A stretch of 64,000 nt of DNA from Rhytidiadelphus loreus (Eukaryota > Streptophyta > Bryopsida > Hypnales > Hylocomiaceae). The notes below the pieces were generated by a model. It saw only the letters and a list, made by a program, of their open reading frames with translations. It was not told the DNA's origin and did not search any database. Shown here one piece after another: positions 6,839 to 63,931 of the stretch (within the stretch, counting starts at the first letter, position 1; each line of letters begins with the position of its first letter). The stretch is from assembly GCA_947034895.1 (NCBI GenBank), contig OX344764.1, positions 6,262,001-6,326,000 on the forward strand, read 5' to 3'. Made by a program: the position numbers and the translations under genes.

Positions 6839-24845
<18,007 letters not shown>

Positions 24846-42323: not shown

Positions 42324-42486
42324 AGAAGAACCATCAGGATGACAAGAGCCAGTCTAAATGGAACCGAACAAAAAATAATAAATGAAGGCTACAAAGAATT
42401 AGGACTGTTTTACACTGAGATTCCTGTGAACTGCAACAAGTAGTAAATCCAATAGCCCCACCTCCTTCAACACTTTCTTGTAGTTT
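42324..42486 (-). pseudogene. Two further short SPIRRIG fragments joined end to end
   Basis: 42324-42438 matches about 20536-20645, with several substitutions and small indels near its left side. 42437-42486 matches 21110-21159 with one visible substitution. The two join at a shared CAA(G) and keep the parent order and orientation, while about 5.4 kb and 0.46 kb of the parent are skipped. The next bases enter repeat copy B directly. The pattern resembles template-switching or filler-DNA repair. Confidence 0.85.
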
Positions 42487-45400
42487 TCCAAATTTAACCG
42501 TCCGTACGGATGTTTATAGAGCTTGCTTATTAGTATGCACACCAATTTTGAGTGCAAAATTGCATAAGAGTTGTGAGATTATAACAAGAGAAATGTATGT
42601 GTTTTATTTTTAATAAGTTTTTCTTCCCCACAATGTTTCAGAAATTTGCATATAAAAGTTTTTTTGAATTGGAAGTGACATGAACAACTAAAAAATAATT
42701 ATGTTAGCACACTAAAATGCCCTTTCAAAAAACTTAATATCACTTGAAAAGTTATTAAAGTCATCACACAATCCACCTTGCAATTGTTGAGATGCAATTT
42801 TCTTTTATAAGTATAAATAAAAATAACTCCAAATCAACACTTTCTTTTTATTTTCAAGGGGGAAAATCATTAAAAACACTTTACTCCTTTCATTGGGACC
42901 ATTTTCAAAGCAAATGGATAAGTACAAGTTTTTAGATCTCAAATCAAGTGAAATTGCTCAAAGTTGGAAAATGAAGTAAAATTTTGTAAGCTTTACTCTT
43001 CCATTATGAACATATATGGCTTTGGAGACCTCTCAACAATCCAATATATACCTTTTTCAGTGAAAAATGAAAGTTTTCAATAGTTAAACCTAAAAATTGC
43101 CCCAATTTTTTTTAACTAGTCAAACGAATTTAATTGCCTACTGCAAAATAAGCCTAAAATTTCAAATCAACCATATGGTCGCCTAGGCATTTAGGGATTA
43201 ACGCCTTGATCCTTTTTCAAAATCTAGCACATTTTTGCTTATATCTTTCTACAGAAATATTATTTACCACACTTTCATGAAATTGGTCATTAAGGAGGGT
43301 TGTCTTTTCAAGATTCAAGTATTACATTGGATGAATGAGAGGTTAGTTGGATTACACAGCACCTCCAAACCCTCTGTTCATCGTCCAGAATATGGATGTC
43401 GGAATGCTTAAGGGTTAAAGGGGAATTGATTTGCTTGGAATTCCCTTATTAAAGCTGCTCCAAATTTTAGCCTTGTATAGAATTAAGAAAGCTCTAGAAC
43501 AAATTATGTCAAGTGGAAGTAAGTGGAGCAAGTTTAGAAGCAAGGCTTTTTTTCATTTTCTAAGAAGTGCCAAAGTAGCAATGGTAAATGTTATAGTGGT
43601 GCACCAAATTTCAACATTCATTCACATATTGGATAGAAAATATCACATTAGCACATATCACATGTCTATACTTTGGTTTTTATCCCCAATTGGGTGATTT
43701 CATCCAAGTTTATTTGCCATTTTTTAGCCACATTATTTTTTTTAGTGCAATCTGGCACCAAAAAGCCAAAAAAAAGCCTTGCTTGGAACTCCCTTATTGG
43801 AGTTGCTCCAAATTTTAGCCTTATATAGAGTTAAGAAAGCTATAGAACAAATTATGTCATTTGGAAGTAAGTGGAAGTAAGTAGAGCAACTCCTATATTT
43901 ATCATTGATGAGAAATTTTGAAAATTTCAAATTCATATTTGGACTTTCAAACCCTAAATTAGCATGGAGAGGTCATGAAAACCAAATTCAACAAACCATA
44001 ATAAAAGGAAAGTTTTTACATTTATCTAATGTGGAGGAAAAAAAATCCATACTTCTATGTTAGACTATAATAATGTAATTTGTATACCTTATGAGTTTGC
44101 CTTGGTTAGTGTTCAAGTCACTTGTGATATGACCCAATTTTTTTATTATTCTAACTAATTCCTAATTTCATGTAAAGTAGTAGGTGCTAAATGCAACCAA
44201 CTTCTAAAATGTCCTCTAGGACAATACAAGAGGTGTATATTAGAGTTTTGAATGTACCAATGGTGAACATAGAGCTTCTACAACCCTATTCCATATCACA
44301 TTCAAAAATTCTGAAATAGTTCTATAGAGGCCCTTCAAACATCAAATGACTTGCCATATTTAACTACTTTTGGACTTTTAAGGAAATTTTGGACTTTGTC
44401 CAGCGGGAGATCTCCCGCTATCATAGATATCTAAAATCTAAACCTGTTGTACATTTTTCAAACCACCTAGTCCAAAATCTATATCAATTCTAGATTTATA
44501 AAATCTATAGAAGTCAAAGTCTACAATGGTCTTAGATGTCCCTTTACCAATTTTGGACTTTGCAAAATCCAAAAATAGTTAAATATGGCATTTGGGTTAG
44601 ATGACAGTTTTATTAATCTTCCAACGATATCTTATAGAAAAATGTTCTATAGATTTCAACTTCTCTCAAAGCATACCAATTGATAAATGGTTGTTTTGTG
44701 AATCCTATACCTTATTTCCATTGTTGAAACTTTGGCTTACCTTATCAATGTTACTCTTATGTTTTGGCAATTCTTTGAGGTGCACTTTGTCCTTCCAAGC
44801 CTCAAGGTCTCTTTTCATCAAAAAACACTAGGAATTGCCATTTCTATTGCAAAGAGCAATTTTTTCATATATTGAATGATAGGATCTTTTAGTATATTTG
44901 TATAAGAGTGTATGGAAGAAATTCCAAAAACTTTGACTTTGAAGGATTTAGTATTCAAAGTGAAGAATTTTTTTTTTCCCATAAGTGATACAATTATAGG
45001 ACCCTGAATCTTTTTAATGTAGAATTATTGCACCGCAAATTTTTAATTTCAATATTTTTATGTTGAAGAATTGGTTTGAGAATCTAGGATAAAAAATACA
45101 AAAGGAAAGAAATTGACTTTCATTCTCTAAAAAATTGTTAAGTAGAAGCAAGTACAAGATAGAAAGAAAAAATAAATTGTTGAAATATCTATGATGAAAT
45201 TGAAACACATTAACTCATACAATTATTCTAGCAAGCTAATAAAATCTAGTGGTATTTTTTTATAAATTGTGAAAATTTTGTTAAAAATGAAATCCAATAT
45301 GTTATTTTTTCAGGAAAATGCAAATGACTTCCCACAAAACAAAAAGCTCCATACCTTTCACGTCACTAATCCAAATGAAATGAATCAAAGCTTTACATGG

Positions 45401-45632
45401 AGACAAAATTATAATCTAAAAAAAGAAAATTTCAAAAAGTTTATTTCAAATTTTTGTGGGGTTATTTTTTAACTCAATAAACTTCATATCTAACTTAAGA
45501 TGGCATAACTTTTGTTCCAAGGCACTATTGTAATTGAAATAAACATTATATCCCATCAAGCTAATGTATTTTCAAAAAGTCATGTCAAAATTTGAAGTCA
45601 CGTGAGCAAAGAGAACTTTGGGATTTACTTTA
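42487..45632. repeat. Dispersed AT-rich repeat, copy B (target of the giant element)
   Basis: Second copy of the repeat at 32953-35976. It starts abruptly after the SPIRRIG fragments and ends at the left end of the giant transposon. Relative to copy A it has a different segment at about 43.0-43.4 kb, one missing 85-bp unit, and an inserted MITE at 44353-44589. No coding sequence recognised. Confidence 0.8.
44353..44589. mobile_element. 237-bp MITE inserted in repeat copy B
   Basis: Absent from the matching place in copy A. Terminal inverted repeats read GCCATATTTAACTACTTTTG on the left and, on the minus strand at the right, GCCATATTTAACTATTTTTG. Flanks are ACTT on the left and ATTT on the right, while copy A has a single ACTT, which fits a 4-bp target duplication with one later C-to-T change. 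It contains an 18-bp perfect palindrome at 44402-44419. No coding capacity. Its ends share GCCATATT with the giant element next door. Confidence 0.85.
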
Positions 45633-45664
45633 AAGGCCATATTCATTAAATTGAGACAATATGG
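45633..45664 (+). repeat. Left terminal inverted repeat of the giant element
   Basis: 32 bp beginning AAGGCCATATTCATTAAATT. It pairs with 63806-63837, differing at one position (A here, G in the other copy on the same strand sense). Preceded directly by the TTTA duplication. Confidence 0.9.
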
Positions 45665-46112
45665 TCATTTTGAGAACTTAAGGCTCTTCCATTCAAAGAT
45701 AAATTGTTGAAGGCGAAGATAAAAATAGGCAAATCGATAGAAGGCATAGAGCAATCCCACACCAAAACAATTAAGAAACGTGAATGTGCAAAATGCAACT
45801 TCACATGAGTTGTGTAATAAGATGTAATATTTATAAAAGCGGGTCCCTTTACATTGAAGAACATGAATTTACTTCTCTCACTTCTCTATATACTTCACTT
45901 CCTAGAAAATGAAATCCCGGTATGTCTAATTTTGCTAGTCTAATGATTGAATGTCTTGTGTCAAAATGTAGAGGCTATGTGCACAGAGAGCACTCACCCT
46001 TACTAAAAATTGGTTTTTGTATATGAATGACTATTCTATTAATAGTAATGATCCTTCCACAAAAAGAAGACCACTATGAACAAGGATCATTGGGCAAACC
46101 ATCGTTCTTGGA

Positions 46113-47041
46113 TTAAGAACTACTATTTGTTGCCTCTTTGGCTGCCTCCAAGGCTTTTAACTTGGCCAATCCTCTAAAGATATCCTCGCGTCGAGAAGGC
46201 TTGGGTGATCCACTGTCTTTGCTGAAAGTGTTGAACATGCCCATCATCATTAAATCCTTGGCCTCTCTCTTCCGCTTTCGTTCACGTCGCGGAATCTCGT
46301 TATTGGAAAGAGACCTAGAACCTCGAGGAGGCGGCCGTGGTATCGATCTATTCACAGTGCTTATGTACGGATCGGCAGTTGTTGTCGATCAAGTGTAATT
46401 TGACCGCCGTATGTCTCGAAGAGTCGTTCGGCGGGAAATAGGTATAGCCGAAGGCAAAGATACTCCGCCCACGGATTTGGAGGGGAACGAGATAGGAATC
46501 TCTACGAGGCGTGGAACCTGTTGTGCACTGCATGCACCCAACGGTACCTCATTGATCCGATCCCCAACCTTGGGATCCACATTCAACTCCATGCTCTGGA
46601 CAGCCTGATGTGGGATTGTCACTGGCAACAACACTTCATCCTCGAGACGAGGATCCATACCCCGCTCTTCGTCATCCGCATACAATTTCCTGTGCGGTGT
46701 GTTTGGGGTTCGCAAAGTCGGCGACTGTGAACGCAATCGACTTGGGGTGGAGCTGGCCCTCTTCATCGGCGACGGTGAGCAAATCGGTGTCCTCACGGGA
46801 CCTCGACTAGGTGGGCTATCTACCACGCCTTCTTCCACATTCCCCTTCGAGAAGTCGATGGCCGCCGAAGCCGCATCGGTGGCCGAGCCCAGGAAGTAAG
46901 GCTTAGAATAGGAGGACGGCACGAAGCTCCCTCCAATCGAGCCGGACCTCATTGAAAGTGACACGTCCGATCCAGACAACAAGCTCCTCGTCAGTGGTTC
47001 CCTTTGTTGGAGACATAGTAGAACGGATCCTCCGACCTATA
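46113..47041 (-). pseudogene. Basic Ser/Pro-rich protein frame inside the giant element, one in-frame stop
   Basis: Not recognised. The reading frame runs from a possible splice acceptor near 47041 (GCTATAG on the minus strand) to a stop at 46113-46115. It is interrupted once by TGA at 46389-46391, which could be a decayed CGA. Encoded features: Ser/Thr-Pro-rich stretch (PMKRASSTPSRLRSQSPTLR), an acidic patch, then a basic run (IPRRERKRKREAK) that could be a nuclear signal, and an Ala/Lys-rich end. An ATG near 46997 lies in another frame, so a frameshift near the N-terminus is also possible. The 3' end of this gene lies about 480 bp inside the left end of the element. Function unknown. Confidence 0.4.
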
Positions 47042-47071
47042 GCAATGGCAGTGAACAAACATCTTTTACAA

Positions 47072-47352
47072 TTATCCTCGACCCAAAGATAAAACACATC
47101 TTTCACAACTATCCTCGACCCAAAGATAAAACACATCTTTCACAACTATCCTCGACCCAAAGACAACACACATCCACCACAATTATCCTCGACCCAAAGA
47201 TAAAGCACATCCTCCACAATTATCCTCGACCCAAAGATAAAGCACATCCTCCACAATTATCCTCGACCCAAAGATAAAACACATCCTCCACAATTATCCT
47301 TGACCCAAAGATAAAACACATCCTCCACAATTATCCTCGACCCAAAGATAAC
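47072..47352. repeat. Tandem array of eight 37-bp units containing a half-degenerate palindrome
   Basis: Units start at 47072, 47109, 47146, 47183, 47220, 47257, 47294 and 47331: exactly 37 bp apart. Each begins with a form of TTATCCTCGACCCAAAGATA, followed by AACACATC(C/T)TCCACAA with minor changes. The left half equals the left arm of the 21-bp palindrome of this element, while the right arm reads CAAAGATAA instead of CGAGGATAA. The shared change shows that one altered palindrome was amplified in tandem. It lies between the FCP1-like gene and the Ser/Pro-rich frame. Confidence 0.92.
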
Positions 47353-47546
47353 TCAACATGGAAGACAAACACATGTTGAACAAAACAGTACAACCAAAAG
47401 AGGCCAGAAAACTTGATTAAAAATTCAAAATTTTACTACTTCACAAGAATGAAATGTACATAAAAATCCTTATTCACAAAAATAATGTACATCGAGTTCT
47501 ATGATTGACTGAGACACTGAGAAGTCTATTTCTTCCTTCGTCTCTC

Positions 47547-48581
47547 TTATTCAATCACTAGATTCATCCCCCGCAACACGAATCGCAACTCGAATGCCTT
47601 GGCGGACATCCTCATCCCATCCAATATATAATTCGCTTGATCGTCTGATGCGACCAAGGGCGCCACACCTATGCGGTTCCGATCTACGAACTCACGAAGG
47701 CGTCCGAGTGGACACTCCTCGTGTAGTTTCTTCAGCCACGGAATGAGAGTGTCCACGAGCACATTGTCTCCACGCATGTACGGGTTCCAACTCTCAAGGT
47801 ATATGCAATTCCTGTTCTCATTGAGGATGCCCTTTTGTGGTGAATCATCGATGAGAATGGTATTGTCCGTGTTGAAGGAGTTGGGATCCTGAGGGTCCAA
47901 GAACAATTCCTCATCAAGCACTTTGAAGAGCAGAGTCTTCCACGGACTCCCAGCCTGATGAAGAAATTTTCCTTCCGAGGTTTCTACCCTCCTGCAGTTG
48001 TCCTGACCTAGGATGTGGTAGGGAGCCTTGCAGTTCTGGAAGAGGAAACTTGCAACTGGCTCCACCGTCTTCTTGAACATGGAGCTCCAAACTACGACGC
48101 GGTTCGAAATCTTTGAAACCTCGTCTAAGAACTCGCGCACATTGGGACGAACGAAGACGGCCTTCGTCCCAATGAGGGTTGGGGTTCGATGGGAGAATAC
48201 ATTATCTCGGACTGTGTAATGTTTTTTCTTCTTATGGGGCCCTTGACCCTGGCTCTCACACAGCACTCCGTTCAAATCGAACACGATATTCAACCACTTC
48301 TGTCGCGGTTGGACCACTAACGAGGACACACTCCGCGGCACTCTGTTTTTTCGACCTGCCGTTACTACCTGATCAAACACAACACGAAAGAGATGTAGTT
48401 ACCTGTTGAAAGGCAAAATCAGGCGATCCATAAAACGGTGAAAAGCATTGAACCCCACTAAGCGACTGCAGAACCCCTCCGTTAAGTGATTGTTTGAGTG
48501 CCAACGGGCGGTGCACACTTCTAAGTTGTCCGCGTTGGGCACAAACATGGGCAATATCAATTCATTAGACACTACACGCAT
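47547..48581 (-). CDS. FCP1/NIF-type (HAD) phosphatase-like protein carried by the giant element
   Basis: Inferred exons 48581-48403 and 48342-47547 join to 324 residues: ATG at 48581, a short intron of about 60 bp, stop TAA at 47547-47549. The domain resembles the C-terminal-domain phosphatase family, which removes phosphate from proteins such as RNA polymerase II. Motif I is FDLNGVL (Asp about 82), the VVVWSS block follows, and the IDDSP acid pair is at about 225-226. In active members motif I reads DxDGT or DxDET; here the second Asp is Asn, so catalysis is doubtful. The first exon's 59 residues have no known domain. This is the only gene in the element I see without a stop or frameshift. 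It could be captured host cargo. Domain call firm, activity uncertain. Confidence 0.7.
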
Positions 48582-49127
48582 TGAAGAGAAGTTTGAGATA
48601 TATTTATTTCAAAATAATTTATGATACACCTGGTCTAATGGTTTTGTTGATCTCTAGCCGATTGTATACAAGTACCAACTACAGTCCGTTGCGGTATCTA
48701 CACTATGCTACAACGTAGTCACAGAGTGGCAGTTCGTCCACGCTTCACAATTAGAGACTGTCCACTCCCTCCTGTCAGACAGAAGGAATTGGCATGAGAG
48801 TCTTTCACTGGGAATATGAACATGATGGAAGCCAAAACAAACATCCATCACATCACATTCGATAGACTCAATCATGAAATATCGTAGGGATCTGACGATG
48901 GAGGAGAGTGTACTTGACCGAACTTCAGGGTTCCGGCGTCCTCATCCAAATATTCCCTGTAGTCTACAGTCTCGTCGTCGTCGTCCGGAGGATTTTCAAA
49001 CTCTATCTCCGCCTCCGGTACTCACGGCTCAGGCGGAGGGGGGATGGGATCTGGAACAACCTCTTTCTCCTCTTGAGTCTCCGGGACCGACTCCGCTTGT
49101 GCCTCCAATGCAAGGGGCTCACTCAAA

Positions 49128-49148
49128 TTATCCTCGCGGCGAGGATAA
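49128..49148. repeat. 21-bp palindrome inside coding sequence (centre CGG)
   Basis: TTATCCTCG, CGG, CGAGGATAA. It lies within exon 3 of the ParB-like gene and is read in frame on the minus strand as DYPRREDN. Both arms are perfect. Confidence 0.9.
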
Positions 49149-49295
49149 TCAGCACCCTCTGTCCCAGTTGCGGGGGGAGCTCTCTCTTCCTAGATCTGTT
49201 GATCTGGTCTATCCACTGGAAGATTAATCCCCTGCTCTTGTTCCATTGGAGGAGGAGAAGGAGGAGCAATATCGTCTTCGGCAGGTGGGAGAAGA

Positions 49296-49316
49296 TTATC
49301 TTCGCCTCGAGGATAA
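49296..49316. repeat. 21-bp palindrome inside coding sequence (centre CCT)
   Basis: TTATCTTCG, CCT, CGAGGATAA, with one T-G mismatch between arms. It is read in frame on the minus strand of the ParB-like gene as DYPRGEDN, the same peptide context as the copy at 49128. Confidence 0.9.
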
Positions 49317-50172
49317 TCCTTACTGATGGGATCGGCGGTCTGCTGACCTGTGGCTTCTGAAGCACCACCAACGTCATGCGCATCAGGTTGAGAGGCAGAG
49401 GGGTCTTGCGATCGCGTTCTCAGAGAAACATTCTCTTCACGCAATTTCTCTAGTTCCCTCTTCAATGCCTCCTTCTCCGCCAGCTCCTCTTCCCTTCTTC
49501 TTGACTACTCTGCCCTCTTGAAGGCCTTCCTCTCCTCTCTCTGCCTCCAAAAATCCTTGAGCTCTTGCTTCACAGGTCGGAGAGGAACATGAGTTTCCCG
49601 TGACGGACCCGCGCCACCATCATCCGGACAATCATAGTTGAAATCTTCCATATCGGAATAGGAGTCCTCGACGTCGTTGATTATGATGTCCGATATAATC
49701 TTTTCCAAGGGCTTCTTTCTGATCTTCTTTTCCTTCCGCGTACCAGCTCCCGCGTCTTCGATTCCCTTGGATGCGGATTCGGGGCCCTCGTCCTCTACGC
49801 GGCCTTGGCCCTGCTCCACATTCCCTCCTCGAACAATATTGGTATTTGTTCCATATTCATTGATGCCGAGGTTGGAAGCACCCTTGTCACCAGGGAAATC
49901 CCGATCTGCCCTTGAGGCTCCCGCATTGCCGTCAATTGAGGGGGTTGACTCCGAGTCAACATCTGGAGTTTGAAGGTTACGAGGACGCTCATAACCTGGG
50001 AGATATGGCGAGTTTTCATGGCAGAAATCATTGATGTCTAATTTACTGCCATACTTCGCCATTTCTCTAAGTTTCTGGGATGCATGCCTGTCAGTAAGGC
50101 CATAATAATAGAGACCATACATCTGTAGAAGAAACAAGCAGTCGTTAGTACTCGTTATCCACCCCTGAGAAT

Positions 50173-50309
50173 TTATCCTTGATTCGAGGATAACACACGA
50201 ACATACAATATACATTGACTAAGCTAGCACATAATACAACACTAACAGACATATCTTCGAGGCGAAGATAACCAACAATAAGACACTTTTATCTTCGAGC
50301 CGAAGATAA
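50173..50309. repeat. Three 21-bp palindromes in intron 2 of the ParB-like gene
   Basis: Copies at 50173-50193 (centre ATT), 50251-50271 (AGG) and 50289-50309 (AGC). The last is a perfect palindrome of the CTTCG/CGAAG type. All fall between the inferred donor at 50334 and acceptor at 50123. Confidence 0.88.
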
Positions 50310-51730
50310 AGACAAGCGAAACATGGAGTCTCACCTTGGCAGCAATCATGAACTTTGAGCCTGTGTAAATGCCGATGACGTTTTCTCCAGTCACGGCAAA
50401 ACTCTAGAGAATGTCAATATAGAATTCCATCCTGAGCTCACTGGCATGGACTCTATATTTCGCCTCGGTATTTTTCTGAAAGTCCGTGTAGTAAAGAATG
50501 TCATCGGTGGCGTAGACCTTCTTAACTACATCCTTATATCTTGGCTCCCCGTCATCCTATTTCTTCAATACAAATAGGAGCTTCACCGGGGGCGCCAACG
50601 CACGGTTGGTCAAGTTGTCCATCCTCTCCACCTTACTTGGTAGGTAGTTGGACACCTTGACTTCGTACCCCGTCATCTTCGACGTCGCAAATTTCTTAGC
50701 CGCGTCCATGTCGTATGAATTTCCCATAATCCATAACCACACATCCAGAGTAGTCATGACCGGCTTCAGGTGATCTGTCAAGAAATTCAGCAATGGCAAG
50801 CACGGTGGATTGTCACCGGATCCTGGATTTGGTCTGGGGAGGACTCGAAAATCTATGACAGCAATACGAAGGTCTCTCATGACATAGGGCCACACGTGGG
50901 TGGTCACAAGAGCTTGGGGATAGCATTGGTGACCCCGAATGAACACATCCCCTCCCACTGGCTCCACCCGCTTCTTCATCTTCAAGAAGGTCTTGAACAT
51001 GTTATAGACCATCGACAATTTCGGTTTGTCCTTGTAGTCTATTGCTGTCTTCTTCTTCGCCTCGTTGGTGAGGCGCTTAACGAAGAACTGGTTGAGGGGG
51101 GGGCGGTTAGAAGGAAATCCCACGTTGCCGAGGAAAATATGTTGTCGCGCTTCCATTGCTTCCAGGCAACGTCAATGACTTCCTCATGTCTGTTCTTGAA
51201 TTTCAAGGACTTATCGAGAGCCATGAATTCCTCCATAATGACTTTCTTTCGCTTCCTCCTCTCTACCCAGTGCTCGGCTTTATAATTGTCCTCGCACAAG
51301 ATCTTTGAAGCGCCCACTGAGACCTTTGGGTAGTCTCGTGTGCGACCTTCTGTTCTCCCAAGCAGATGGAGGACGTAATCCTTCAGATCAATGTCCGTGA
51401 AGTGACCCATGTGCTTGAAAAATTCCCTCTTCAATGAGAAATTCTTCTCGTTGAATGTCTTCGCGCTTTTGAATGGTTTGCGCGTCACAGGATCAATTAG
51501 TGATCCTTCCATGTGTTTTTGGAGGAACTCCTCCCACATCTCGTAAGTCTCATCGGCCAAGGTAATAATTCGGATTTCATTCTTGACATCCGATGCGAGC
51601 TTCACCTGTGCTCCTTCCTTGTCCGGGTTGATGCTGCCATACCGGATCGTGACAGCGTCTACAAAATCCTGTGGAGACGAACATTCAAAGAAGTAAGCTC
51701 ACTGCTCTATGTGTACAATATTGCTGACCA

Positions 51731-51866
51731 TTATCCTCGACCCGAGGATAATTGTGACATACATCACAAAACATACAAATCCATATTACAAAACCTGGAG
51801 AAGCTAAACATTAAGACATCTAGCTAGATCATGAACATCTAGCTTTTATCTTCGCCTCGAAGATAA
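51731..51866. repeat. Two 21-bp palindromes in intron 1 of the ParB-like gene
   Basis: Copies at 51731-51751 (CCTCG arms, centre ACC) and 51846-51866 (CTTCG arms, centre CCT). Both have perfectly complementary arms although the two arm types differ. They lie between donor 51876 and acceptor 51669. Confidence 0.88.
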
Positions 51867-53350
51867 TAGGACCTACCTTGTATGCTGCAAGGTTGTAGAC
51901 GGCTTTGTTCCGCCTCACCAATCCCTCATTCTCGATGTTGGTAGGCCGCTTGAGCTCCTTCCAAACCTGCCTACACGCGGAAATTTGGTTCCCCCACGTT
52001 GGTTGACTGTGAACGAGGTGATTGGAGGCATTGCACCATTTTGAAATAGCTGTGAGCTGTTTCGGGTCTCTAGTCCAGACGATTATAGCCTCCCACGTCT
52101 GCAACTTGATCTTCCGAGTCTCACAACATCCTCCTTGTTGTAGCATTTTGGCTGCTGTGACACTGTGCTGGCCATTGATGATGTAGAAGCCTCCGTTCTT
52201 GATAGAATCCCAATCCTTCGGACGCTCCTTCAGAAGTTTCTTATTGGCATCTATAGGTGTCAAGCAAAGTTTTTGCCTTTGCTGCTCTGAGCCGAGATAA
52301 ACGAGGGTGTCTTTCATCTCAAACACCATTCTCATTTCTAGCTTCCGGATAATATATCTCTCTTTCGCCAGGAAGCATTGTTTGATGTCTACGGTGAAGA
52401 TCTGGGGATGAAAAATGAAGCACTTGCCATTTTCCTTCCAAAAATCTGATTGATATGCTCCAGCCACTTCATGTTTTTCGATTGCTTTCTTATCTGATGG
52501 CTTTCGTGGATTCACATTTGTGAGAATAGAGCCTGAACTGCCAGAGGTTGCTGGACGAGTCTCCGTCACAGATTTCCTGCATTTGTCACTCGGCTCGCCG
52601 GTACTGGTGTCCGGGTTCTTCCTCTTCTGGGCCTGAGCGCGGGCCGTTCCTCTCCCACTTCCTCTACTCCCTGTGCGGCCACGCACTCCAGACGCTGATT
52701 TGGTCTCAGCGGCAGTTTCCTGCCTTTGTTGACCATGACTCGCTCGAGCAGGTCCTTTGTGGACATGTTCCTTTGCGTGCTCTGTGAGCTTATGGAACAT
52801 GTACGCTATTTTCCTCGACGTGGTCCTGGCGTTCCTTCTTTGCCAAGGGTGGTACCTTGAAATAAAGTCTTCGGCCACGGTATCGAGGTTTGCCAAGTGC
52901 AAGTCGGCGATGAGGTTGTCGAAGTCGAAAACTCCCACATTGTCATCTTCATGGCAGACAATGGAATGGGTATGTTTGGTTTCCCTTCCCGCGTTGTCGT
53001 GCCCTTGTAGGGTGATGACAATGTATTTATCTTGGTGTTTCTCTACGAGTGCGACCTTCTCACTCAGGTTCCAATTGATGTACATCCCGCTGTCTTTTAC
53101 TCGATGACGGAGGTAGATGTAGTCCTTGGACTGGTTGACACCGAATGTCCAAGAGTCGACAACGGCTTTGAATTGCCAGAGCTTGCCGTAGAGCTCTGGC
53201 ATCTCCGTTATGAAGGGCTCTTCATCCACCCACTTGCTAAACGGCTCTAGAAACGGGAGGGTGGCTGAGTAGTCGTAGTCTGAGTCTGCAGCCATGTTGG
53301 TCCGATTCTGTACAAAGGAAACCATGAACATCAGAGTCGTAATTTGAATT

Positions 53351-54170
53351 TTATCTTTGCCTCGAAGATAACAGAGGAAAGATGTTCAGACTAATGTATT
53401 TCCACTCATTGATGGTCATGCCAGGCTAATCATCATAACAAAGTAGTGTTGAATTTACTGTTTGTTTTTGTATGTCAGAACTACGGTTAAATATCGTCGA
53501 GAAGAGGATAACTGTTCGTTATTCTCATTTCATTATATTATTTTCTTGGTTCTTTGGGTGTTTTTATCTTCGACCCGAAGATAGCTTTGAGTGCTTTTAT
53601 TTCATTATATAATTTTGTGTTTTCTTTGGTTTATTTTATCTTCGAGCCGAGGATAATTGTTTTGTATTTTATTTTTAATAGCTCAGCCGACATTATTACC
53701 TATAATATATATGAAATTGATAACTACGATTGAGTATCTTTGGGACGAAGATAATTCTCTACGATTTCGTGGGCGTTTTTTAGTTCTCTTCCGTTTTTAA
53801 TCATTTGATTGTATATTTCACACTGTCTTAATTATGATAGTGTCATTTCTGTTATTGCATTATCCTCGGTCTGAGGATAATTGTTTCTTATTTAAATATA
53901 ATTGTAATATTTTGGTGTTTTGTTTGATTGTTGTTATCCTCGGACCGAGGATAACTGTATCATATTTTTATTCTTTTATATTATATTTGTGTTTTGTTCG
54001 TTTGTGTATCCTCGGTCCGAGGATAATGTTTTTGTTATTTACCTCTATTGGTTTTATCCTCGAGCCGAGGATAATTATTAGTGAAGTTCCATTACTTTTC
54101 AGTGTTCTTCACCTTTGTAGACTGGAGTTTTACGTTGTCCCGATAATTATTATCTTTGACCCGAGGATAG
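53351..54170. repeat. Loose cluster of ten 21-bp palindromes upstream of the ParB-like gene
   Basis: Copies start at 53351, 53493, 53564, 53636, 53734, 53860, 53934, 54006, 54054 and 54150, about 50-140 bp apart, separated by unrelated AT-rich sequence. Centres vary (CCT, AGA, ACC, AGC, GGA, GTC, GAC, GTC, AGC, ACC). The cluster falls between the acceptor just before the ParB-like start codon (near 53307) and a likely donor near 54394, so it probably lies in a 5' UTR intron. Confidence 0.85.
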
Positions 54171-54394
54171 TTTTTGCTGCTCACTCATTAATAACTCATG
54201 AGAATATTGACGAAAACCCTAATTGTAATATTAATCATCTGGGCACACTCTGAATACAGACAATGGCAAATACTATACCACACCAAGTAATCTCACATTC
54301 AACTAACACAATCAGAGAAACAGAATTGAAATCAAACATAGAAACCAACAGATACAACAATGTAGAAACAACAAAATACTAAAGACTTGCTCAC

Positions 54395-54487
54395 CTTCAA
54401 ATGATTCTAGTTTCACACTTCCTGCACCAGATTTGAGAGTGTCACAAAACTTCACAACACTTACACTTCCAAATCCAGTAGGTCCTG
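54395..54487 (-). other. Possible 5' exon of the ParB-like gene
   Basis: On the minus strand the segment is bounded by GTGTGCAG (acceptor side) and GAAGGTGAGC (donor side). Another donor-like GGTAAGAAGC lies near 54730. Together they suggest a leader of two or more exons starting within 54.7-55.7 kb and splicing to the acceptor near 53307. Splice-site appearance only. Confidence 0.3.
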
Positions 54488-54954
54488 CACACATTACAAA
54501 CCCTAATCAAAGAAGAAATGGAAAAAAAACTGCACACTCTAACTCTAAAATCTAGGCCACTCATAGTTCCATACTATACAACTAGGTGAAGAATTCAAGA
54601 ACAAGAACAACAGTAACAGCAAACTGAAGATGCAAAGAACAAAAACAAAAAATGCACACCCTAAATTCTAGAACCTTGCACTAGAAAACAAATAAACACT
54701 ATACACAAAACAAGCATGGAATGCTTCTTACCAGAAATTCAGAATTTGTGTCAACTAAACCCTAAAACGCGTGCCTGCAGTCGAAGAAATGCAGAAATGG
54801 ATTCAAAAATCTAACGCCTGCAATCTAAGTTCCCTGCACTTGAAAAAAATCACCAAAAAACCCGCCAAAAAATCGACTGCAGTCCAGGTCGACTACACTC
54901 GCCAGAAATCCGCGCCTGCACTCAAGGTCTTGACTGCACTCGAGCTCGAAGGAA

Positions 54955-55220
54955 CCCTAAACCGCGCTGCGCCACTTGAAAAAACCCGCGTCTGCACTGA
55001 AGGTGTTCAATGCACTCGAGGTCGAAGGAATCCGTGCCGCGCCGCGCCACTTGAAAAAACCCGCGTCTGCACTGAAGGTGTTCAATGCACTCGAGGTCGA
55101 AGGAATCCGCGCCGCGCCGCGCCACTTGAAATAACTCGCGTCTGCAGTCCAAGAAATAAGTGCCTGCACTCAAGCTCGAAGGAATCCGCGCCGCGCCACA
55201 TGAAAAAACCGCGCCTGCAC
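54955..55220. repeat. GC-rich minisatellite, about 70-bp units
   Basis: Three to four units of about 67-75 bp contain CGCCACTTGAAAAAACCCGC, CACTCGAGGTCGAAGGAATC and CCGCGCCGCG. The middle units are nearly identical and the outer ones diverge. Reading frames over it on both strands are repeat artefacts. It sits in the likely promoter or leader of the minus-strand ParB-like gene. Confidence 0.8.
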
Positions 55221-55278
55221 TGAAGCTTCAAGCTCGAAGAAGCAGCCGTGCGACAAGTTCCAAAACAAACCCGCACAT

Positions 55279-55345
55279 CAAGCTCCACCCTAACCAACAC
55301 ACGCAGCAAGCTCCACCCTAACCAACACGCGCAGCAAGCTCCACC
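55279..55345. repeat. Short tandem repeat AAGCTCCACCCTAACCAACA, 2-3 units
   Basis: A 27-29-bp unit containing AAGCTCCACCCTAACCAACA and GCGCAGC appears twice nearly exactly and a third time in part. Directly visible. Confidence 0.75.
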
Positions 55346-55779
55346 GGAAACCAATACAGAAAACTCCAAAATAACCCGCGCCCCAATCTCCAAACAAACA
55401 CGCACAAACTCCTCCAGAACAACCGCGAGGTACAGTTCTAGAAAGAAACACCCGCGTGCAAACTGGTGGGGAGGGAGGACTAGCCGAACCGAACACCAAG
55501 CCTCCTCCAAACCGAACACCAAGCCTCCCCCGAACCTACTTTCCCTTCCCCAGCTTTGGGCCATAACGAACCTACTTCACCAACCTACAGCCCCTTCAAA
55601 CCTATTTTCCCTAGCTTCCGGCTTCCCCAAACGTACTTTCCCAAGCCTGCAAACTCTCAAGAATATACTTTGTTGAATGTACGTCACCGGACCTGTCTCC
55701 ACAAAACCTAATTCTTAAAAGCTTCAGATCGTATACACGTATGTGTTTTGCAACCTCAAACAATGGGCGGGTCACTGAG

Positions 55780-56345
55780 GAAATCATCTATTTTGTCACC
55801 GTGTAAATTGTTGGGTTAAAAAAATGAAAATGTACTCAATGGAAGACAAACTACTGTAGATGATCTTTTCTTTCCACACAAATTCTAGAGGATGAATAGT
55901 TGCATTTTTGTTCTACACGGAGTGATTCCTTGTCATTCATTGACTAGAAAATGGCCTTTGGCATTGTTCATGGGCTAAAGAATGTAAGGGAATGTCATCC
56001 AATTAAGTTTGTACAGTTCCCTATTTCTCAAAGAAATGGCATTTGATTTTGAAGAATCGAAAATTCTACCACAAATTATACCTTGTGACATTTGGGCATT
56101 CTAAATGTTGTTAAAAAAAAATAACTTTTGAATGCCAGGCTATTTGTTGTGAAAATTATTTGTTTTATCACCATGTGAATTGTTGGCTTATAAAAATGGG
56201 AAAATACTAATTGAAAAACAAAATATTGTAGATGACCTTTCTTTTTCACCCTAGAGGATGAATAGTTACATTTGTGTTCTATATGGCAAAATTGTTTGTT
56301 ATTCATTGACCAGGAAAAAACCTTGGTGTTGTTTAGGGTTAAGGT
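55780..56345. repeat. Diverged ~200-bp direct duplication
   Basis: About 55785-55985 and 56150-56340 share blocks such as TGTAGATGA, AGAGGATGAATAGTT, TTCATTGAC and AATTGTTGG in the same order with many substitutions. An old tandem duplication is the simplest reading. Confidence 0.6.
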
Positions 56346-56349
56346 TTTA

Positions 56350-58400
56350 AGGAAGGCTAAAAATCCACGTGATGAAAATAATAGATGTTGAACATATGTA
56401 TCAAGCCATTGTCCAAAGTGAATGTGATATCTTCTAATCCCATAATTCATCTCCTTTAGACTTTTATAAATTTTAGACTTCATATAAATTTTATATGAAA
56501 TACAAAGTTTAGTAAATTTAAATAAACTTCTAAAGTATTGTCATGAATAAAAGAATAATCAAGTAATAAATTTTTTTTCCATTGTTTTATTAAAAAATTA
56601 TAAAGAACTTTTACATTACAAATGATTCTAACCCCTCAAGGTCTAAACACCATTTTTTAAAGATTCAACATTATAATAGGTATGAAATAACCATTAAATG
56701 AGACAAAAAATAAAATGTAGAATTATAAAATATTTTAAACTTGAATTTATGATTATTCTCTTAATTAATTTAATGCCATTTGTCTGGTACTTCACAACAA
56801 AACATTAAAATTAAGTATTCATGTTTTCTAATTTAAAGAACTATTATTTCTGAATTCATGGAATAAAGTTTAGCGTAGAATGAGAAAAAAAATGAAACTT
56901 CTACATTTTTTCTCACTTCACTGTCTTCTTTAGAATTCCATTATTGTAGTGCATTGAGTTTAGTTTTTAAAGTACAAAGTACGTTTGGCTTGTTTTTTTT
57001 CTTAATTCTATGTTAAATAGTTTAAGAATTAGTTTGATACAATATTTTATTTATTGAAAACTTATAATCACAAAATTATAAAAGTATAGCACTCAAAATT
57101 GTTCATAGTAGTTAGAAGATAGGCCTTTCATTCATACACAACTAGCACTTTTTGAGTAATTATGTGGTTTAAGAACACAAGAGAATTTCTAAAACTTGTA
57201 GAGTAAAGTATTTTTATACACTTTAGGAAGTCATTGTATAAGATACATTCTAATACATTCATTTGTAGGAAGTGAACCTCTAATGATGATTATTTATGAG
57301 ACATTGAAGTGGTTCAAGTCTCTAAACCATGATGGAATTATTACTAATGATTGGTAGCAAATGAATGCAAAGTCCATCATTCATTTCAATGTACAAACAA
57401 AGTAGTCTCAGTTGAAGCCAATTATGCTTAAAATCATGGCTTGGGAAGCCATGAAGGTGGAAATCATGACTTCTTAGAACAAAGGTCTTTGAATTTTTTT
57501 ACTCTATTATTAATTACCACACTTGTAAAAATAGAGGTCCTACTTTGTATGGTTAATTTATCCTACTTTCTTTTTGAAATATTTTAAACATTTTTTTTTA
57601 TTTCCTTCATCTTCATAAAAGGTTTTGGCTTCTTTTTTATTGTACTTCTTTACAGTGTTGTGCAAATTTTAGGTTTTTTTCCCAAATCATTCTAATTTAA
57701 AAAACAATTGAACAAAATAATAAACTATGTTGAAGAATCATTATTCTTTCAAATTTTATCATGATTTAACTAGTACATTATTTTGTTGTTCTTCTGTAGT
57801 TATCCTCATTAAAATTTTAAGCTTCTGTGATTTTAATTCTATATAGTACAGCATCAATGGCTTCATTTCTTCTTTGGTTTCCAAGGTGCTTTACAAGAAG
57901 AATAGCAAATATTTAATGTGCTCCTCTATCAATGCAAATCCCTTAGAATGTGTTACAATATTATGGAAAATAAAATATAACAAATACTAGATTTTATAGA
58001 ATTGAATGTTATAAAATTCACAATAATACATTATTCATTGTTTTGGAAAAAGAAGCTCAAAGTTGTGTATATTTTTTATGACATTATATTAGAGATTGTG
58101 CAATATTTTGGGTAATTTTGAACATGTACGGTCATTTACAAGCCAACAAAATTGGAGATCATTTATTAGTTGAGATGAATAATATTTGAAACAAAAAATA
58201 TTATGTTTAATCATCCGCTTGCATGTAAAAAATATCCTAACCCCAGTAAATTTTAAATAAGAAACATCCTTGAAATTTTTATTATTGGAATTTCAAAAAC
58301 AAATATGCATTTAGGGTTTAAGTTGCAAAATCACAATATGAATTGTCAATATAATTTGAATTCGTGAACATGTAATTTACATTTCGTGAAGATTTTCTTG
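56350..58400. other. AT-rich spacer inside the giant element
   Basis: Very AT-rich, with no coding frame I can support and no palindrome copies. It separates the minus-strand genes from the transposase-like gene and probably includes the promoter of the latter at its right side. Confidence 0.5.
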
Positions 58401-58428
58401 TTGCTCCTAAACCAATAAACTCTGAAGT

Positions 58429-58456
58429 CCTAAACCCTAAACCCTAAACCCTAAAA
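58429..58456. promoter_or_regulatory. Interstitial telomere-type repeat / telo-box
   Basis: Four consecutive copies of CCTAAA(C) with unit CCCTAAA, the plant-type telomere sequence. Plant promoters often carry telo-boxes (AAACCCTAA). With the TATA-like TATTTAAAT near 58689 it could mark the promoter of the transposase-like gene. Regulatory role is inferred. Confidence 0.45.
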
Positions 58457-58689
58457 GCCCTAACTTCATTCCCTATTGGAAGCTTACAGTAGGTACATTT
58501 CTGTTTATAGCCCTATACATTCATCTAAATCACACATTAGAATAAACTATTTTAAAAAAAAGGTTGTTTGGCGGCTGGTGTAAGAATTGCCAAATTTGAC
58601 AAATCCAAAATTCCGTTGTGCTTTCAAAGAATATCTCCACATTTTCCGAGAAAGGGTGACTGCCAAAGATTCCACAAACTATGAATCCC

Positions 58690-59031
58690 CCTATTTAAAT
58701 CTAGAAAAGATCGGTTACGTCAGATCCCATTTCTATTATTGCAAAGCTCCTTCGTTGTTATTCATCGATGTCATTATTTGGGCGATGAGAATGTCAACGG
58801 CCCCCTAATCCGAGGCGGTACTTCTCCCCTACGTCCTGAAAATCATGAAAAATTCAAATGCCGTTGTATTTCCCGCTCATATTCTCCCGCTAGTATGTGC
58901 ATTGTCTCTCATCCTCGAGCACCTCATTTTCTCTCTCCTGTTTCCCAGTTCTCCCTCCTCCGCGGCCTCTTGCTGACATTGCTACCGCACGGCCTTTGAA
59001 CTTATGTTTTTGCATTCATTTACATGTTTAT
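58690..59031 (+). other. Possible 5' non-coding exon of the transposase-like gene
   Basis: The segment follows a TATA-like box and ends at a donor-like TATGTGAGTAGG at 59030-59040. The matching acceptor would be GCACGCGCAG just before the ATG at 60214. If so, the 40/44-bp palindrome array lies inside this first intron. Splice-site appearance only. Confidence 0.3.
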
Positions 59032-59292
59032 GTGAGTAGGTGGCTTAGTTTCGCACGGGTTGTCGTAAGTTCCTCTATTTCCCTTCTTCCCTTCTCATTG
59101 AATTCTAGATTCCTGCGGTTGCTCTTTAGTTTCAAGCAGAGGTGCATAGACCTACGATTCTTGGAGTATTGAGAATTCCGGTGTCACGTCTCAAATGTTG
59201 ACTTCTGTATGTTAGTTTCGGTAAAGAACAACCGACTTTTACGCCGTAAATTTCGGAACTCTACATTTATCTCTCACATCCATGCATGGCGG

Positions 59293-59729
59293 TTATCCTC
59301 GACTCGAGGATAATCGAAGACATACATGGATGGAAGTTATCCTCGGCTCGAGGATAATCGAAGACATGCATGGATGGAGGTTATCTTCGGCTCGAGGATA
59401 ATCGGAGACATGCATAGATGGAGGTTATTTTCGGGTAGAGGGTAATCTCAGACATACATGCATGGATGTTATCCTCGGCTCGAGGAGAATCACAAACATG
59501 CATGGGGGTTATTTTTGACTCCAGGAGAATCACAGAATTTCATGGAGGTTATCCTCGAGCCGAGGATAATCACTGATATGCATCGAGACTATCCTTGGCT
59601 CCACGATAATTTAAGATATGCATGGAGATTATCCTCGAGTCGAGGATAATCACAGACATGCATGGAGGTTATCCTAGACACGACGATAATCATAGACTTT
59701 GATCGAGGTTATCCTCGGCTCGAGGATAA
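59293..59729. repeat. Tandem array of eleven palindrome units, 44-bp then 40-bp period
   Basis: Units start at 59293, 59337, 59381, 59424, 59469, 59509, 59549, 59589, 59629, 59669 and 59709. Spacing is 43-45 bp for the first four steps and exactly 40 bp for the rest. Each holds the 21-bp palindrome (several copies decayed) and a spacer with GACATGCATGGATGGAGG or a shortened form. The shared spacer shows tandem amplification, and the change of period suggests a 4-bp deletion in the founder of the second block. Confidence 0.92.
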
Positions 59730-59883
59730 TCAAAAGCATGCATAGTATATGAATGATAACCATAGACAAGCATTGGCATTCATTGACATTTATGATGATA
59801 TTCAGAGTTGATATGCATCATCACTCTGACACTGTAATGTCGTGTGCGGGAATGCATAATATCTCTAAATCGTTTCCATGTGA

Positions 59884-60172
59884 TATCTTCGAAGCAAAGA
59901 TACCTTTCATTTTCTTACTCCTTGGGATGAGTGTTCGGTATATGATGTAAGCCTATTCTTATTTATTCTAAGGAATGCAAAGATATTAGATTGAATTTTC
60001 TTCTATGGTACTGTTGTGCTAATTCTTCGCATTTCCACTTCTTTAATCTAGGTGGATGGATTATTATACTTGATTACAAAATGATTTACAAGTTTTCACT
60101 CCTGTGGAGGTCACTTTGATCCTCATTTTGTGAATGTGCCGTACCTAATTATTATCCTCGCCTCGAGGATAC
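59884..60172. repeat. Two isolated 21-bp palindromes ahead of the transposase-like gene
   Basis: 59884-59904 (ATATCTTCG, AAG, CAAAGATAC) is decayed. 60152-60172 (TTATCCTCG, CCT, CGAGGATAC) is nearly perfect and ends 41 bp before the ATG of the transposase-like gene. Confidence 0.8.
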
Positions 60173-60213
60173 TCACAATAGTATGAATTAATTGGTGTTC
60201 TTGCACGCGCAGA

Positions 60214-63057
60214 ATGGATACTTCAGATGCCAACAAGTTTACAGTTGCAGTGCCAACTTTGCCGCCGGGTGTTGTAGCCTGCGAGGGATTTCCTCGAGCT
60301 TCTTGGTATACCAAATGCGTCACACTCAGAAATGAGGAGGGGGTAGAGGTGGCAAAAGGAATTTGTCATAATGTTGATGCAGATCTCGTCATTGACATGG
60401 ACGGGCAGCCACTCGGTGATGACCGGGTTGCAATTCAAATTGCAGAGTCTTTGTGTGAGGCAGATGTTCCATCGGAGTGGATGTGGTCCATGCACTCCTG
60501 GCACATTACCAGGGTATACCTTAATGGTGCCAGCTTATATGACCACGAACAAACGCATCTCTTCAATACTGCAGTCTCTTCAAACGGTTCAAGGCGGCGT
60601 GTTCGGACTGGAGTTCGTTCCTATGAAAGCTCATGTAAGAGGACTGAGCCTACCAATCTCCCAAAGAAAGAAGCCCTCCTCACAGAGCAAGCAATTGCTG
60701 ATGTTTCTAGTATGAAATGTTGCCAGAAGAATTGCTTGCAACCATTTCCACGTGGTCAGATTCAAGCCGTTCGGTCTTTACTTCATATTGATGGTGGAGT
60801 GTTTTGGCGCAAGTCACGTCTGCTTGACGTGCACAAGCAAACCCACACTGATTCCAATGGAAGGGACATGATTACCTTGGTAAACCATGAAATTTATTCG
60901 GTTGCTTGGTGCGCCATCCATGGAGTATCGAAGGCTACCTTTTATAGATATAAGAAGATGGCAAAAGATGACCAAAAACCGAAGCATCATGGCAACCTTG
61001 GAATGAAAAAACCTCGGACACACACTTTGCAAGCCACAACAACTCTTCGATTATTAGTGGAGAATGAAGCCGACACGATGCCCCACAAATCTAAAACCCT
61101 TGAGTCTGGGGAGAAAGTTCTTTCTATGGTCCTACCCTCTGCATTTCGTTGGAAGGATAAGTTGCCACAGATCAACAATGTCAATTCTTCACTTCAATTG
61201 CAACATATTTCGGCTAGTGGATTGAGTAACATTCGACGTCAATCTTTTCCAGAGTATGCTCCTAAGGCTAGAGGTGATAGTTTTGCTCGTTGTGGAATGT
61301 GCGATAGATATAGACAACTCAAGAGTGCTTGCACTCCACGTTCGCGAGCGCAAGATGTGTGGTCTAACAAATTGAGAGTGCACCTATCGGGACAAAAGGC
61401 GCATAGGGACTTGTACTATGGAAACCGTTCAATGTCTGAGATGTATCCTGACAAGGTTCTGACTATAATCCATGACAAGATGGATCACTCCAAGACTGCT
61501 TCTCCTCATTACTCTCACAAAAGTAAGGGTAATGATTCTTTCATGAAAATGCCTGTCGCTGTTACAGGCATGATTGCTCATGGTCATGGAGATGTGCGAT
61601 ATGCACACTATGGCTTGGACATCTTCCCAACAGACTCCAACCATACTATTGGATCCATTGCAAAATTATTGTGAGATCTAGAGTCACAACCGAAGCATTC
61701 ATCTCATCAATTGTTTGTAGGAGGAGAGCGTTCTGAATTGACAGAGGCTTTGTTAATAGGCTCCGAGATTTGTACGGACTCCCTCGGGTCCCCCCCTGAA
61801 GTGTTGGTGGAAGCTCAACCTCTTCCTCCAACATTGACTCTTCAGCTTGACAATGCTTCTGGCGACAACAAGAATCGGTGGGTTTTTGCATTCTGTTCTC
61901 TCCTTGTCTATAGAGCTATTTTTCAAGAGATATACATCAATTTCCTCATTGTTGGACACATTCATGAGGACATTGATGCTCTATTTGGTCGTTGGAGCAC
62001 TAAATTGAAGACGAATGATTACCCCATGCTTCCGAGGTTGATGAAGTCTTTTATGGATTGTGAAACGCAACCCGTGATTCCTCATCTCATTGAGGAGGTT
62101 CCTGATTTTAAGCGATTTGTGGACGGGTATTTGTATACAGGCGATGATTCTCTACAAGGTCATTCTCAAGCGCAGCAGTTCAAGTTTTATAAAGATTCGA
62201 ATGGGTGGCCATTGATGCAGTACAAGATCCTTTGTACCAATGTGGATTGGTTGCCAAAATAAGGTGGGGGGATTCGCTTGTGGAAGGAGACAGTAGATGG
62301 GCACCCTAAAGTACCGAGGGGTAGTCCTCTACCTTTGCCACCACAACAAATGCATTGCTTTGATGAGATTTGTAAGGGCTTAGATGGGTACATTGCATTG
62401 TGGGGGGCAATGGGAAATCAAGACTTATCTGGCGAGTTTAGGAGGAAGAATGAGCCGGTGCGGAAATATTGGGAGGGTGTAAGAAGTGCTCTCAATGCTC
62501 CACTTGTGGTGCATGAGACATTACGGTATGGATTTTGGCCAAATTCTCGAATTACCGATGAGGTGGAAGACCAATACCTAGATGATGGCACGATTCGTGA
62601 GCAGTTTGCGGAAGATGCATCTTTTGTTGGTCGTAGGCGTGATCGTCCACCTCCTTCATTTCGTGTTGGCCGTGATGTATATGCAGGTTACTTAGTTGTT
62701 GTGCGACCAGCTGACGGTGCCCTCCGTCCATTTTGGCTTGCTCGAGCTCTAACAAATCCTAATCCAGATCCAGGTCATGTCAATTCTATTCAATATTGGA
62801 CACCTACGTCTTTTCACCACACCAGTGAAGAAACATATGCTGGATGGGACACAAAACAAGGGAATTCTTGGTGCGAGGATAAGGCTATCTCTCCGAGTTG
62901 GACGCATACAGACTGCATTATGACTGCTTGGAAGCCACGTTTCAAAGAAGGCACTTCTGATCCAAGAGTTAGAATTCCCAAAACACAAATTGCTATCATC
63001 CAGACATCGGTGGATGCATATGTATCTAGTGAAAGCAATAATGTATCTTCGGAGTGA
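60214..63057 (+). pseudogene. Transposase-like protein (DUF7869-type, RNase H-fold candidate), two in-frame stops
   Basis: One frame of 948 codons, broken by TGA at 61672-61674 (codon 487) and TAA at 62260-62262 (codon 683). Protein similarity continues through both, and both could be C-to-T changes of CGA and CAA. Key blocks: Cys/His-rich RCGMCDRYRQLKSAC, then IIHDKMDHSK (Asp 421), TGMIAHGHGDVRYAHYG, LQLDNASGDNKNRW (Asp 546) and GHIHEDIDALFGRWS (acidic 585-588). The D/D/(E or D) spacing fits an RNase H-fold transposase. The blocks resemble the DUF7869 family, which I associate with transposon-derived genes in algae, early plants and invertebrates; this is from memory. The C-terminal part (to TEVEDQYLDD-like and tryptophan-rich blocks) has no domain I know. 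Start ATG 60214 has good context AGAATGG after a splice acceptor. It lies at the right end of the element, pointing to that end. Confidence 0.7.
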
Positions 63058-63743
63058 AGATGAATAGTTTGTAGGCATAGGAAATCATTACGAGTTTTGC
63101 GAGTTTATATGTTATTTTCTTAACTTAAGGAAGCATGACAAAAAATTATAAAGAATTGTAGAAGTTGATAGTTTCTTTGATTAGGGCACAAAAAAATATA
63201 ATAAAAAGTTGTTAGAAAAAAATAGGTAGAGAAGATGAAATAGATTTAGTTTTTTTATTCTTTTAGTTAATTGTTTTGATCTTTTTTATATTATTTTAGA
63301 ATTTGATGTTATAGATGTTGTATAATATAATATATTTTTATTTTTATTTCTTGTATTGTATTGTGTATTTTGTAAGTTCTTCATTGTAATTCTATTGTCT
63401 ATGACATTTGTTTTGGAACACTATGAGTACTAATGTTTTCTATACAAAGTAATTATGAACTTCTCTATCTAAGCATATGTCAAATTCTTCACTTTGACAT
63501 TGTAGTTTTTGATAAGGCTAGGTGGACAAATGTATTCTATCATGGATGATTTCAAAATTCTCTACATCACTATATGTCAAACTATTTACTTAGACATTTT
63601 AGTTAAGTACTTATTATAAATGGTTCTAGTTTCCCATCCAAAATCCCTCCTTTCACAACCTTCACTACTAATTTTTTCCTCTAATTTCTTATACTTGTAC
63701 AAATTCTTTATTCTTCAAGCAGTTTATGGTCTCAATTTTTTGA
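63058..63743. other. AT-rich 3' region of the transposase-like gene
   Basis: Very AT-rich, no further frame of interest. Probably the 3' UTR and subterminal region of the giant element. Confidence 0.5.
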
Positions 63744-63826
63744 ATTGTCTCAATTTAATGGACTCTTCTACATACTAAATTTAGGAAGATGATTAAAATG
63801 AGAATCCACATTGTCTCAATTTAATG
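63744..63826. repeat. Subterminal direct repeat of the TIR core
   Basis: The 17-bp ATTGTCTCAATTTAATG occurs at 63744-63760 and again, inside the TIR, at 63810-63826, 66 bp apart in the same orientation. Repeated TIR motifs near the ends of DNA transposons are often transposase-binding sites. Confidence 0.8.
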
Positions 63827-63837
63827 AATATGGCCTT
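63806..63837 (-). repeat. Right terminal inverted repeat of the giant element
   Basis: 32 bp, reverse complement of the left end with one mismatch. It is followed directly by TTTA (63838-63841), the same 4 bases that precede the left end. Confidence 0.9.
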
Positions 63838-63931
63838 TTTAGGGTTTTGCCCAATAGTTGTTGGAGAGCTCGTAATAGTTCCTTCACTGTTGGATAGTTG
63901 TATTGTGGTGTATTGTGGCTGTTACAGCCAC

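Follow-up and report, generated by a model that had tools for sequence, protein, structure and literature searches.

Positions 45633–63837 of the 64-kb stretch analysed here (contig OX344764.1 from Rhytidiadelphus loreus, positions 6,262,001 to 6,326,000; hereafter the window) are occupied by an 18.2-kb DNA transposon. In the reading that we consider probable, this is an apparently recently active four-gene element in which gene A provides the transposase and a protein encoded by the element controls the element's own genes by binding a dyad motif. The four genes are a DUF7869 transposase-like gene (A), a frame initially called ParB-like (B), an FCP1/NIF-like gene (C) and a Ser/Pro/Arg-rich frame (D). 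The motif, a 19-bp dyad scattered through the element, reads TATCYTCG-N3-CGARGATA (i.e., TATC-Y-TCG-N3-CGA-R-GATA); the dispersed dyad is new here and had been missed by the initial annotation of this DNA. Judging from its genomic copies, the family is apparently a high-copy, recently active ~18-kb four-gene DNA transposon.

Both ends of the element can be defined. The 32-bp terminal inverted repeats (TIRs) at 45633–45664 (forward strand) and 63806–63837 (reverse strand) differ by one mismatch, and no such pair arose in 100 shuffles; no further TIR occurrence was detected at ≤3 mismatches in the rest of the window. The TIRs are bordered by a TTTA target-site duplication, at 45629–45632 on the left and at 63838–63841 on the right. 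Self-comparison of the window revealed a paralogous flank with an empty insertion site (32952–35985, forward strand): 32952–35971 is a paralogue of 42484–45632, with four main pieces of 93.8–99.1% identity, and the alignment ends at 45632, the base directly before the TIR. Here the paralogue goes on as TTTAGGATTTAGCCCAAT (35968–35985), to be compared with TTTAGGGTTTTGCCCAAT (63838–63855) to the right of the element; the empty site therefore contains a single TTTA (35968–35971). On the right side, homology ends 3 bases ahead of a 30-bp sequence, TGTTGGAGAGCTCGTAATAGTTCCTTCACT, which is present in identical form at 39720–39749 and at 63859–63888, the second copy starting just right of the transposon; it is possibly the start of another repeat family. 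The ends, TIRs and 4-bp duplication read in the initial annotation are thus correct to the base and, by its TIRs, constant-length duplication and empty site, the element fits a cut-and-paste (class II, TIR) DNA transposon.

Copies were then sought in the genome assembly (407 Mb, 489 contigs). The counts of scored copies are lower bounds and include the window copy. The left end (first 168 bp) was represented by the best 40 of 436 candidates scored, at 97–100% identity, gene C by the best 137 of 1045 and the first 495 amino acids of gene A by the best 86 of 1691. Stop-free matches, tallied by hand from the match tables, make up 88 of the 137 gene C copies and 60 of the 86 gene A copies, so that the search for a copy without stops proposed in the initial annotation has an answer for these two genes. 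Gene C lies inside 35 of the 40 left ends in the correct orientation, 34 times at 1.49–1.75 kb and once at 4.96 kb. Gene C is also found ≤60 kb away and in opposite orientation for 80 of the 86 gene A copies, at a distance of 10.5–15.5 kb in 64 of these 80 pairs (11.8 kb in the window). Both ends were checked in nine other copies, chosen among the left ends having a gene A partner. All nine, 17,756–18,406 bp in length, have intact TIRs, the right one included (0–1 mismatch in a 28-base comparison), and each has its own, different 4-bp duplication (AAAT, CTTG, ACAT, CCTT, ATAA, GTCT, TGCT, CTAG and TAAA). At all ten loci examined, one of them the window, gene D adjoins gene C, and gene B was at the expected position in the three other copies examined, with 81–93% DNA identity. 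The initial annotation had inferred from the window copy that the four genes travel together in a giant, possibly multi-gene selfish element, an idea that would have lost its ground had TIR copies never bracketed these genes; other copies of the ends do enclose the same genes, and co-occurrence, uniform length and ends all support it. Left ends that are 97–99% identical, together with intact ends and duplications, point to recent movement.

Gene A (60214–63057, forward strand) matches Pfam DUF7869 (E 7e-38), which bears out the DUF7869-type, transposase-like gene of the initial annotation. We found 106 homologues; the seven that carry an organism name all come from Ceratodon purpureus or Physcomitrium patens and, since all named homologues are from mosses, the host is likely a moss. 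DUF7869 was matched by 35 of 36 aligned members, and a Pfam scan of these 36 gave no significant match to other transposase models (KDZ, EnSpm, Sola, hAT, Harbinger, MULE etc.); a remote relation to known transposase families may nevertheless exist. One recombinase-type helix-turn-helix match was seen among the 36 (E 0.23), and a weak IS66-TnpA-like match, below the cut-off (E 0.026), leaves residues 228–277 as a possible helix-turn-helix. Four acidic residues, numbered D419, D545, D585 and D587 in P0001, show an invariance of 90% or more across the alignment, and the conserved acidic positions fit the strand/helix order of RNase-H transposases. From these residues, this order and the linkage to the ends, we infer that gene A is the transposase.

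The other three gene regions described in the initial annotation are also present, the ParB identity of gene B being the part that found no support. Gene C (47547–48398, reverse strand) is an uninterrupted exon of the NIF/FCP1 family, as first proposed (Pfam PF03031, NIF; E 9e-17, 61.7 bits for a cut-off of 21.8), with a likely short 5′ exon at about 48403–48548 predicted from the sequence; its PDB profile match to C-terminal domain small phosphatases reached only E 0.013. FCP1/SCP phosphatases have a DxDx(T/V) catalytic motif. In gene C, DxN stands in place of DxD, all 13 aligned members having Asn for the second Asp, and canonical phosphatase activity is therefore doubtful. Gene D (46113–47036, reverse strand) encodes a Ser/Pro/Arg-rich frame of about 290 amino acids whose start is not fixed and which had no Pfam match above the cut-off; in nine non-window copies it has the terminal stop only. 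Gene B (48872–53295, reverse strand) consists of three exons (51877–53295, 50335–51668 and 48872–50122) and two short introns, as deduced from splice signals. Its four homologues (P0107–P0110) are 42–52% identical and lie on anonymous contigs. The ParB label, which rested on a GQHS motif, is unproven: there was no match above the cut-off to Pfam or PDB profiles, the PHROG ParB-like match (E 0.019) falls off the GQHS motif and has no passing stretch, hhalign aligned the NGQHSVTA of gene B to the RGRHQITA of Escherichia coli YbdM with a probability of 0.9%, and the fold prediction was unusable (predicted local distance difference test score, pLDDT, 35). The window copy is decayed: gene A has two in-frame stops (61672 and 62260), gene B a frame slip and several stops, and gene D one early stop, while the gene C exon has none. 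Exon 1 of gene B is stop-free in three other copies (L052, L053 and L054).

Genes A, B and C appear, from the pattern of substitutions, to have been kept by selection during the spread of the element. The nonsynonymous-to-synonymous ratio (pN/pS) was 0.092 for gene C (10 copies) and 0.143 for gene A (10 copies; two with stops, the stop codons being skipped), both taken from best-scoring copies, a choice that biases the ratio downward, and 0.155–0.217 for exon 1 of gene B (four copies, six pairs). Selection on the three genes fits working parts rather than cargo. Synonymous divergence (pS) is uneven, with means of 0.05 for gene C and 0.11 for gene A among top-scoring copies and values of 0.2–0.5 for exon 1 of gene B among four copies picked by position; several sublineages, exchange between sublineages or a faster gene B could each account for it. 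Within a single element, the gene B of L053 (1575–2999; G000:C2) differs from window positions 51877–53295 with a pS of 0.49, yet its gene C is 97% identical at the amino acid level, perhaps by recombination between sublineages or because B evolves fast. Two gene C copies on C5, at 46682570 and 46718817, lie 36 kb apart with equal scores and each with its own gene A copy; they possibly represent a local segmental duplication.

Within the window, the dyad is confined to the element. At ≤2 mismatches, 38 sites were found inside it (18 of them perfect) and none in the other 45.8 kb of the window; at ≤3 mismatches the numbers were 41 and 1, and a stricter pattern gave 37 matches compared to a mean of 0.06 in shuffles. 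Thirty-four of the 38 sites are non-coding and four are coding, while 48% of the element is coding in our annotation (binomial p 9e-7, sites treated as independent). The half-sites co-vary (Fisher p 0.0014; of the 21 sites outside arrays, the test used 20 and omitted one that has a different base). When sites with ≤2 mismatches are counted, the outermost ones leave 1.0 kb free at the left end and 0.8 kb at the right, and the last 330–410 bp of the nine other copies contain no dyad; this position away from the ends speaks for regulation and not for end synapsis.

The sites fall into arrays upstream of D, A and B, with periods of 37 bp, 40/44 bp and 72–74 bp respectively, a single leader dyad just ahead of A and of B, and two or three dyads in each gene B intron. 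The array upstream of D (47073–47350), which separates this gene from C, has eight dyads at a 37-bp period in the window and three to six units in the nine other copies (i.e., 3 to 8 across all). Upstream of gene A, a 40/44-bp array (59294–59902) precedes the leader dyad (60153–60171); this leader has 0 mismatches and occupies the same place in all ten copies, window included, among which the number of dyads upstream of A, leader included, varies from 5 to 18. A leader dyad and an array also lie upstream of gene B (53352–54169). In three other copies, the leader of B and both dyads of intron 1 (51732–51865) are kept, whereas the array, aligned piecewise, differs in its number of dyads and in part of its spacings (about 62, 73 and 52/67 bp). 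Between copies whose pS is 0.2–0.5, the intron-1 dyads stay conserved as islands; one substitution falls on a base that the motif specifies. Intron 2 carries three dyads (50174–50308). The coding tail of gene B contains two perfect dyads (49129–49147 and 49297–49315, within 49129–49315), which encode YPR-x-ED peptides; in coding DNA too, the motif is therefore either tolerated or favoured by selection. At greater distance, where protein and not DNA was seen, the intron read-through fits the dyad in all four gene B homologues (YPRLED, YPRVED, LSSSRR), and the gene A homologue P0002 would allow a variant dyad just before its start. A 75-bp GC-rich tandem repeat (54906–55225), located in the central part of the element where there are no genes, contains no dyads.

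A second dyad specificity is found on L002 (CADCWO010000071.1), a 4.3-kb contig that encodes an uninterrupted relative of gene A, 46% identical. Its dyad, TTTAGCTCG-N3-CGAGCTAAA, occurs at six sites at ≤3 mismatches, none of them coding (0.0 in 60 shuffles). In this one contig, the TCG-N3-CGA core and spacer are identical to those of the window dyad and the arms are different. The window dyad has one near-match in L002, coding and with 4 mismatches, and the L002 dyad has none in the window at ≤3 mismatches. L002 (1–4327) is filed under a Synechococcales (cyanobacterial) metagenome-assembled genome and is probably plant contamination, the named relatives of its transposase being all from mosses.

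A dimeric DNA-binding protein encoded by the element best explains the dyad, which is element-confined and symmetric, and stands at fixed, gene-linked places beside unstable arrays. We propose that the DUF7869 protein of gene A would act on the 32-bp TIRs, giving 4-bp duplications without evident target sequence, and that the element would mark itself: one of its own proteins (A, B or D) would bind the 19–21-bp dyad as a dimer and thereby control the element's genes, from upstream positions and from introns. The most likely effect would be to shield the dyad regions from being silenced by the host, an anti-silencing role suggested by analogy with VANC and the VANDAL elements; B, C and D would be working parts and not passengers. 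Several observations weigh against this proposal. Many dyads are tandem duplicates and, when they are counted as nine clusters, six are non-coding and three coding, which alone gives no strong bias; of the four coding sites, two have no mismatch; no dyad lies ≤500 bp upstream of gene C; and array units, which were selected by the motif, share their spacer too (major-base frequency 0.83 vs 0.93 in the motif). For the gene A model, no PDB fold came out as a confident match, the pN/pS ratios of A and C carry the bias mentioned above, and six of the 86 gene A copies and five of the 40 left ends are unpaired.

The unpaired copies would also be expected if the window held a chance nest of unrelated insertions, and 16 of the 80 A–C pairs fall outside 10.5–15.5 kb, so nested inserts probably occur. 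However, independent copies are uniform in length, ends, duplications and gene order, which refutes a chance nest for the family and makes it scarcely conceivable here. Dyads just ahead of the A and B frames and upstream of D are operator-like, and their form suits a dimeric repressor; they might therefore be operators through which an element protein shuts its own genes and limits copy number. This is the rival we take most seriously, although we think it unlikely: large variable arrays and intron dyads exceed the needs of an operator, and in a high-copy family repression has not halted spread.

Two further explanations are more improbable still. Captured host transcription-factor sites that drive expression would also lie upstream of genes, and many dyads have GGATA on each outer edge, which we take to resemble the I-box; but the L002 dyad shares only the inner TCG-N3-CGA, its arms being without GGATA, and outside the element the window has no dyad at ≤2 mismatches and one at 3, which leaves a small chance for this reading. 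En/Spm (CACTA) elements, with TnpA and TnpD, 3-bp duplications and subterminal sites, illustrate that a transposon can hold many sites for its own transposition protein. The moss element likewise combines a probable transposase, a putative helper protein and a repeated motif whose binding is putative here, but it has 4-bp duplications and gene-associated dyads; as the dyads stay clear of both ends and gather around genes, their use as subterminal-type sites for assembling a transposition complex, as with TnpA, is slightly harder still to credit than host-factor sites.

VANDAL elements have a MULE transposase and a long target-site duplication, and are smaller than the moss element, whose duplications are 4 bp. 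Membership in VANDAL finds no support, since no MULE domain was found (DUF7869 alone was significant in the 36 members) and the duplications are 4 bp. The closest working analogue is nevertheless the VANC anti-silencing of Arabidopsis VANDAL elements. In the portions of two papers that we draw on (PMC5735166, PMC10398659), VANC proteins lift the silencing of VANDAL elements, whose short motifs they bind, the targets being rapidly diverging tandem arrays of these motifs in non-coding DNA. An element-specific motif in non-coding tandem arrays is likewise found in the moss element. As far as those portions go, both are multi-gene plant DNA transposons with fast-changing non-coding motif arrays and with different motifs in related elements; they differ by a 19–21-bp dyad here vs a 9-bp motif there, and by the transposase family.

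Mosses have a long haploid phase. According to part of a further report (PMC12477816), giant KDZ, EnSpm and Sola-1 transposons of Ectocarpus and other algae exceed 10 kb and carry accessory genes, and one Sola-1 family encodes a ParB-like and DNA-methyltransferase protein whose proposed task is to bind the element that encodes it and to modify that element. Size above 10 kb, accessory genes beside the transposase and a long haploid host phase are shared with the moss element; compared to what that part describes, the moss transposase matches DUF7869 only, and the four-gene set with FCP1-like and Ser/Pro-rich genes and the dispersed dyads are different. Fungal DNA transposons encode TET/JBP dioxygenases (PMC12730594, in part), a transposon-borne gene thought to oppose cytosine methylation, which is a parallel to the role suggested here; Pfam found neither a methyltransferase nor a TET/JBP dioxygenase domain in the moss element proteins.

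Elsewhere in the window, a 1203-bp piece of a gene at about 9.4–25 kb, BEACH-family-like by eye, is duplicated (13877–15079 and 41089–42291, 99.9% identity). Beside it are short pieces of 20536–20649 and 21107–21159, near the repeat at 39.7 kb. The arrangement suggests that gene fragments were captured recently.

The element is a complete, high-copy, 18-kb land-plant transposon with many stop-free gene matches, and DUF7869 proteins of unknown function gain a probable transposase role. At its boldest, and with little confidence, we can imagine a distinct superfamily of giant bryophyte transposons in which an element protein, perhaps B acting as a ParB-like clamp on parS-like dyads, would load at dyads centred on TCG-N3-CGA and coat the element's regulatory DNA against silencing; the dyad arms would co-evolve with the binder, so that lineages become self-specific, and the FCP1-like pseudo-phosphatase could provide a link to RNA polymerase II. 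Dyad arrays of varied size, together with the second specificity in a relative, constitute a natural experiment. They make it possible to test what keeps transposons of such great size moving, and whether sequence-specific self-recognition like that of VANC may have had an independent origin outside flowering plants.

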